Shown here: positions 33,922-33,943 of the stretch, one piece after another
Position numbering within the stretch: the first letter of the stretch is position 1
Layout of the letters: every line of letters starts with the position of its first letter
Origin: Brachybacterium sp. EE-P12
GTDB lineage: Bacteria; Actinomycetota; Actinomycetes; Actinomycetales; Dermabacteraceae
Direction: 5' to 3'
NCBI RefSeq assembly: GCF_003711805.1
Contig: NZ_QXCP01000009.1
Coordinates: 1 to 64,000 of the forward strand
Length of the DNA stretch: 64,000 nt
The notes under the pieces: model-generated
Told to the model about the DNA's origin: nothing
Seen by the model: only the letters and a program-made list of their open reading frames with translations
Database searches by the model: none
Position numbers and translations under genes: made by a program

Positions 33922-33943
33922 TCTTGACGTCAAGATAGTCTTG
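33922..33943 (+). promoter_or_regulatory. Overlapping palindromes at the icd promoter
   Basis: A perfect 14-bp palindrome TCTTGACGTCAAGA (33922-33935) overlaps a second inverted repeat CAAGA-TAG-TCTTG (33931-33943). The candidate -10 TAGTCT (33936-33941) lies between the arms of the second repeat, so a bound dimer would occlude the promoter. The motif resembles MarR-type operators. Initiation near 33948 would give a leader of about 40 nt carrying GAGGGAG. Confidence 0.6.

Follow-up and report, generated by a model that had tools for sequence, protein, structure and literature searches.

The palindrome upstream of icd in Brachybacterium sp. EE-P12 is very probably an operator of the MarR-family repressor TamR

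Introduction

The closest described counterpart of the system reported here is the TamR regulon of Streptomyces coelicolor, to which icd itself reportedly belongs. A second comparison is offered by AcnR of Corynebacterium glutamicum, a TetR-family protein with an operator of another kind, which is likewise a dedicated repressor at an actinobacterial aconitase gene. TamR of S. coelicolor belongs to the MarR family and acts as a repressor of several citric-acid-cycle genes, that of aconitase among them, and citrate and trans-aconitate bind to it and weaken its interaction with DNA, according to PMC5487221, which summarises the work on this regulon (Huang and Grove 2013, Mol Microbiol 87:1151; Huang et al. 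2015, Biochem J 466:347). In PMC9755347, TamR occurs in the reference list only, and a literature search with letter variants of the operator core returned nothing related, as judged by titles and the beginnings of abstracts. The preliminary description of the locus analysed here had found the regulation of a TCA-cycle enzyme by a MarR-type factor not obvious, for which TamR, described in PMC5487221 as a repressor of citric-acid-cycle genes in Streptomyces, provides a precedent.

The system described below resembles that of Streptomyces in that a MarR-family regulator is encoded, the relatives of which are divergent to the trans-aconitate methyltransferase gene (tam) with an operator in between, and in that the targets belong to the citric acid cycle. 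Unlike in S. coelicolor, tamR of the present genome is separated from tam and lacks an operator in its vicinity, the targets include an MmgE/PrpD gene preceded by an iron box, and a glyoxalase-fold gene is a further target in seven other genomes of the genus. What had not been expected is that the operator can stand upstream or downstream of a single hexamer, that a glyoxalase-fold gene is among the putative targets and that the PrpD-like gene has an iron box.

Results

The icd palindrome and its copies in the genome

The analysed stretch of DNA, hereafter the window, comprises positions 1–64,000 of contig C15, one of the 21 contigs of a 3.96-Mb assembly. The perfect 14-bp palindrome noticed earlier at the icd promoter, TCTTGACGTCAAGA, in which TCTTGA and TCAAGA flank a central CG, was confirmed at 33,922–33,935. 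It starts 67 nt upstream of the ATG and lies between a ZIP-family transporter gene (33,010–33,840) and icd (33,989–36,217, plus strand), the proposed target, which encodes a monomeric NADP-dependent isocitrate dehydrogenase (PF03971, 1272.6 bits; TIGR00178, 1268.7 bits with a cut-off of 950). The palindrome is the putative core of a TamR-type operator, the family of which is 18 bp long and has the form TATCTTGA-N2-TCAAGATA; in the window this longer form covers 33,920–33,937 with two mismatches, both at the left edge. Although the icd palindrome was the single match to TCTTGANNTCAAGA at up to two mismatches in the window, shuffled sequences averaged 0.35 matches at the same tolerance, thus the window by itself is weak evidence.

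Across the genome, exact matches to the 14-mer were found at four places and to its reversed control at none, while the 18-mer TATCTTGANNTCAAGATA, allowing up to three mismatches, detected the same four places and none besides. These sites are located upstream of icd, the aconitase gene acnA (PF00330 match), tam and a gene of the MmgE/PrpD family. The genome thus has the operator before both the aconitase and the trans-aconitate methyltransferase genes, as in the S. coelicolor regulon; the best NCBIfam model for the tam product, a trans-aconitate 2-methyltransferase, was NF010703, with 303.6 bits, 16 bits below the cut-off of 320.

Every one of the 38 genomes of the genus carried one to four sites at up to two mismatches, while the control pattern matched once (in G037). 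All 72 of these sites lie upstream of just six gene types, namely acnA (35), tam (19), a glyoxalase-fold gene (7), the PrpD-like gene (6), icd (4) and an MFS transporter gene (1). That icd accounts for so few of them reflects the three mismatches which separate its usual site, AGTCTTGACGTCAAGACA, from the 18-mer. At the class level, 154 of 296 genomes had a site at up to one mismatch and the control pattern matched in two (G238 and G268).

Conservation of the icd site

The preliminary description had named the lack of the palindrome upstream of orthologous icd genes as the finding that would refute its reading. When the 12 specified core bases of the operator were scored, the icd site was kept in all 38 genomes of the genus, with no mismatch in 28, one in nine and two in one (G032 was counted once; L266 and L270, where the icd start was unrecognisable, were scored by the core-base scan and left out of the promoter comparison below).

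An icd of this monomeric type occurs in 69 of the 149 order-level genomes, and the gene start together with the preceding DNA was scanned for 59 icd genes outside the genus (401 bases each, apart from one stretch of 1101 bases, L321). The site was detected with one to three mismatches in 28 of them, while the other 31 had at least six and none fell in between; shuffles yielded 0.05 at three mismatches and the reversed pattern never came below six. The conservation asked for was therefore found, inside the genus and in part beyond it, and an operator at icd is common to many genera of one order.

The occurrence of the site outside the genus was associated with that of TamR, which was present in all 28 genomes with an icd site versus 20 of the 31 without one (Fisher p = 0.0004, with the line for presence set by us at 170 bits and related genomes treated as independent; the best matches nearest to that line in the icd set were 174.9, counted as present, and 156.2, counted as absent). 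Wherever TamR was not found outside the genus, the icd site was absent as well. Since 20 genomes have TamR and no site at icd, this gene appears to be an optional target.

Anatomy of the icd promoter

The hexamer TAGTCT (33,936–33,941, plus strand), which directly follows the palindrome, is a candidate −10 box of icd. Of the 36 genus genomes whose icd start could be recognised, 35 have it and one, G033, has TAATCT instead. Relative to the ATG, the hexamer lies at −53 in 14 of the 37 rows including the window and at −52 in eight others. The probable −10 box assumed earlier is thus plausible with regard to conservation, but a scan of 33,780–34,100 for the sigma-70 consensus gave no promoter, for which reason conservation is the basis on which we propose TAGTCT.

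The operator takes two positions relative to this hexamer. In 32 of the 36 genomes it begins at the TCT of TAGTCT and overlaps the hexamer from the downstream side, while in the window genome (G000), G004 and G029 it is on the upstream side and ends just short of TAGTCT. Accordingly, the operator starts at −67 in the window versus −45 to −52 in 32 of 37 genus rows. A degenerate operator-like stretch, TCTTGGTCCCAGGA (33,939–33,952; three mismatches to the 14-mer), begins in the window at −50, which is the operator start in 14 of the 37 rows. This stretch may be what remains of an earlier copy of the operator, and the simplest account of the arrangement would be a 17-bp tandem duplication followed by decay of the older copy.

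If such a duplication took place, the second inverted repeat reported across the −10 region would consist of the operator's right arm and the remnant opposite it. This repeat, CAAGA and TCTTG around TAG, is indeed present and perfect in the window (33,931–33,943), but it is not conserved, since its arms are broken in G004 (CAAGATAGTCTAG) and G029 (CAAGATAGTCTGG). It was therefore rejected as an element in its own right and looks incidental, a product of the operator abutting the conserved −10-like hexamer. Inspection by eye of the DNA upstream of acnA showed that in many species the operator comes after a −10-like stretch resembling TGGTATTAT.

The TamR orthologue and its relatives

The genome contains one TamR-profile match at E ≤1e-15. 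The corresponding tamR orthologue (L011) is a MarR-family gene on the minus strand of contig C18 (965,096–965,632), while tam is on contig C17, so the two are not adjacent. The earlier statement that no regulator gene is found beside icd holds. Profile matches to MarR structures, best to chains of 8ylh and 8ylf (8ylh, E 2.6e-40) and also to 2fbk, HucR of Deinococcus, span nearly all of the protein, and a VTSGTMTxRxDxL stretch was invariant in the eight TamR proteins aligned. The neighbours of tamR, assigned by eye, are ABC-F-like and TetR-like genes.

A scan of named genomes with an alignment of TamR-like proteins confirmed at least 543 relatives, and the best 80 of these loci, mostly from Streptomyces and Kitasatospora, were analysed. 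Their proteins are 46–56% identical to the TamR of the present genome. The icd operator sequence recurred, at up to three mismatches, at the start of the MarR gene (between 250 bp upstream and 120 bp downstream of where the MarR match begins) in 73 of these best 80 of at least 543 loci; all 80 sites detected fell into this zone and none elsewhere in 424,829 bp, while the reversed control gave no site. In the same 80 loci, tam was present in 74 and divergent in 73, and the operator was located between tam and the MarR gene in 68. As far as sequence can tell, this layout is the one expected of tamR and tam; S. coelicolor is not among these 80 loci, hence their genes are called tamR by layout and homology. 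In three (L164, L177 and L179) of 28 class-level loci (L158–L185), the operator is likewise flanked by tam and a MarR gene whose product is 52–53% identical to that of L011.

Within the genus, 37 of the 38 genomes had a strong TamR match. The remaining one, G032, is 84% complete; its best match was at E 3.7e-5 and no clear TamR was seen, yet its acnA and icd sites are present. No operator was found within approximately 1.5 kb of tamR in any of the 30 genus loci scanned out of the 37 strong matches, the best candidates having at least five mismatches. The autoregulated layout of the relatives is consequently missing here, and tamR autoregulation of the usual kind seems to have been lost in the genus. 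In the present genome tamR also does not stand beside tam under a shared operator, a Streptomyces feature that control of a distant target does not need. It is worth noting that in a set of 30 order-level tamR loci, several from outside the genus were likewise without the operator.

Discussion

Considering the operator itself, its conservation, the shared set of targets, its position at the tamR genes of relatives and, outside the genus, its absence at icd where TamR was not found, we concluded that the icd palindrome is very probably a landing site of TamR, the repressor known from Streptomyces as a sensor of citrate and aconitate. With good confidence, 33,922–33,935 can be regarded as the operator of the TamR orthologue encoded elsewhere in the genome, a dimer of which would repress icd until citrate or aconitate releases it. 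The earlier assignment of the palindrome to a MarR-type operator thus gains support from comparative data, as the operator sits at a MarR gene, tamR, in relatives. An unexplained palindrome thereby acquires a likely regulator, a set of targets and a testable signal.

According to this model, the TamR dimer would sit on the palindrome beside TAGTCT, block the −10 region and keep RNA polymerase off icd. If aconitase were slowed or its iron-sulphur cluster damaged, citrate and aconitate would build up, bind to TamR and make it leave the operator, upon which icd, acnA, tam and the PrpD-like gene would be expected to rise together. The flux through aconitase and isocitrate dehydrogenase could then recover, while trans-aconitate would be methylated.

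The attribution to TamR has to be weighed against the possibility that a different MarR-family protein binds the operator and that TamR is merely an inherited neighbour of tam in the relatives. The present genome would offer candidates, as the MarR model gave 20 matches, 16 of them above the cut-off, with at least four MarR proteins of ordinary length; in addition, tamR is distant from its presumed targets and has no operator close by, and G032 combines operator sites with no clear TamR. A genome scan of the kind proposed in the preliminary description recovered four putative target sites. At all 20 loci with a MarR match, the closest approach to the 14-mer had three or more mismatches, which tells against another MarR protein. 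The confinement of the operator to the MarR start in the best 80 of at least 543 loci and the presence of TamR in every genome outside the genus with an icd site render binding by another protein improbable, and TamR remains the preferred regulator. It is also unlikely that TamR binds but activates or just fine-tunes icd, the polymerase not being blocked. The operator of the window, lying upstream of TAGTCT and off the likely start, would suit such a role; however, in most of the genus the operator overlaps the hexamer from downstream, and at acnA it follows a −10-like stretch, which are usual positions for a repressor, and the Streptomyces protein is described as a repressor in the summary cited above (PMC5487221).

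Two further readings hardly come into consideration. Were the palindrome to work at the RNA level, either as a terminator or as a hairpin in the leader, its possible stem of five pairs might be invoked, but its folding energy was no better than that of shuffled sequences (z 0.75), there was no terminator-like site, no Rfam match at E ≤1 was obtained in 33,700–34,200, and the same sequence precedes other genes and marks the starts of tamR genes. Having neither a G+C-rich stem followed by a U run nor an Rfam match, it was classified neither as an intrinsic terminator nor as a known structured RNA. Chance is as remote an explanation: judged from the window by itself, a match at up to two mismatches did turn up in 31 of 100 shuffles, but the four genomic sites before linked genes, with none for the control, and the conservation throughout the genus refute a fortuitous palindrome. 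Repression by TamR thus accounts best for the data, and sister species that differ in the side of a conserved hexamer on which the operator lies offer a clean case for the effect of operator position on control.

The promoter of the MmgE/PrpD gene (L097, within 325,000–332,000 of contig C9) has an iron box at 328,691–328,709 in addition to the operator at 328,736–328,753. This box is the best match in the genome to a DtxR/IdeR-type pattern, with one mismatch as opposed to three at each of the five other places found. An iron box with one to four mismatches was located 38–46 bp from the operator, start to start, at all six genus loci where the PrpD-like gene has the operator, while shuffles reached four to six mismatches at best. 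The PrpD-like gene is followed in the same orientation by a gene for a ComA homologue (PF02679). It is conceivable, though we regard it as rather doubtful, that the TamR circuit of the genus in addition controls a substitute for aconitase that has no iron-sulphur cluster, for which the MmgE/PrpD protein would be the candidate. The odds are lowered by the model scores of this protein, which are far under the cut-offs both for 2-methylcitrate dehydratase (127.9; cut-off 950) and for the bifunctional 2-methylcitrate dehydratase/aconitate hydratase (121.1; cut-off 575). If the suggestion were true, a shortage of iron together with accumulated aconitate would turn on the PrpD-like gene, and the same signal would open icd; with the iron box and the operator on one gene, such an iron-sparing aconitase bypass is directly testable.

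Two other gene types under the operator deserve mention. A VOC/glyoxalase-fold gene (PF00903) follows it in seven of the 38 genus genomes (L046, L054, L061, L067, L072, L077 and L080), and in 37 of the best 80 of at least 543 loci of relatives a homologue adjoins tam in the same orientation; its product is a possible unstudied partner of Tam. In a single genome (L073, contig C41 of G018), the operator lies 30 nt upstream of an MFS transporter gene (PF07690), the product of which is perhaps a tricarboxylate carrier.
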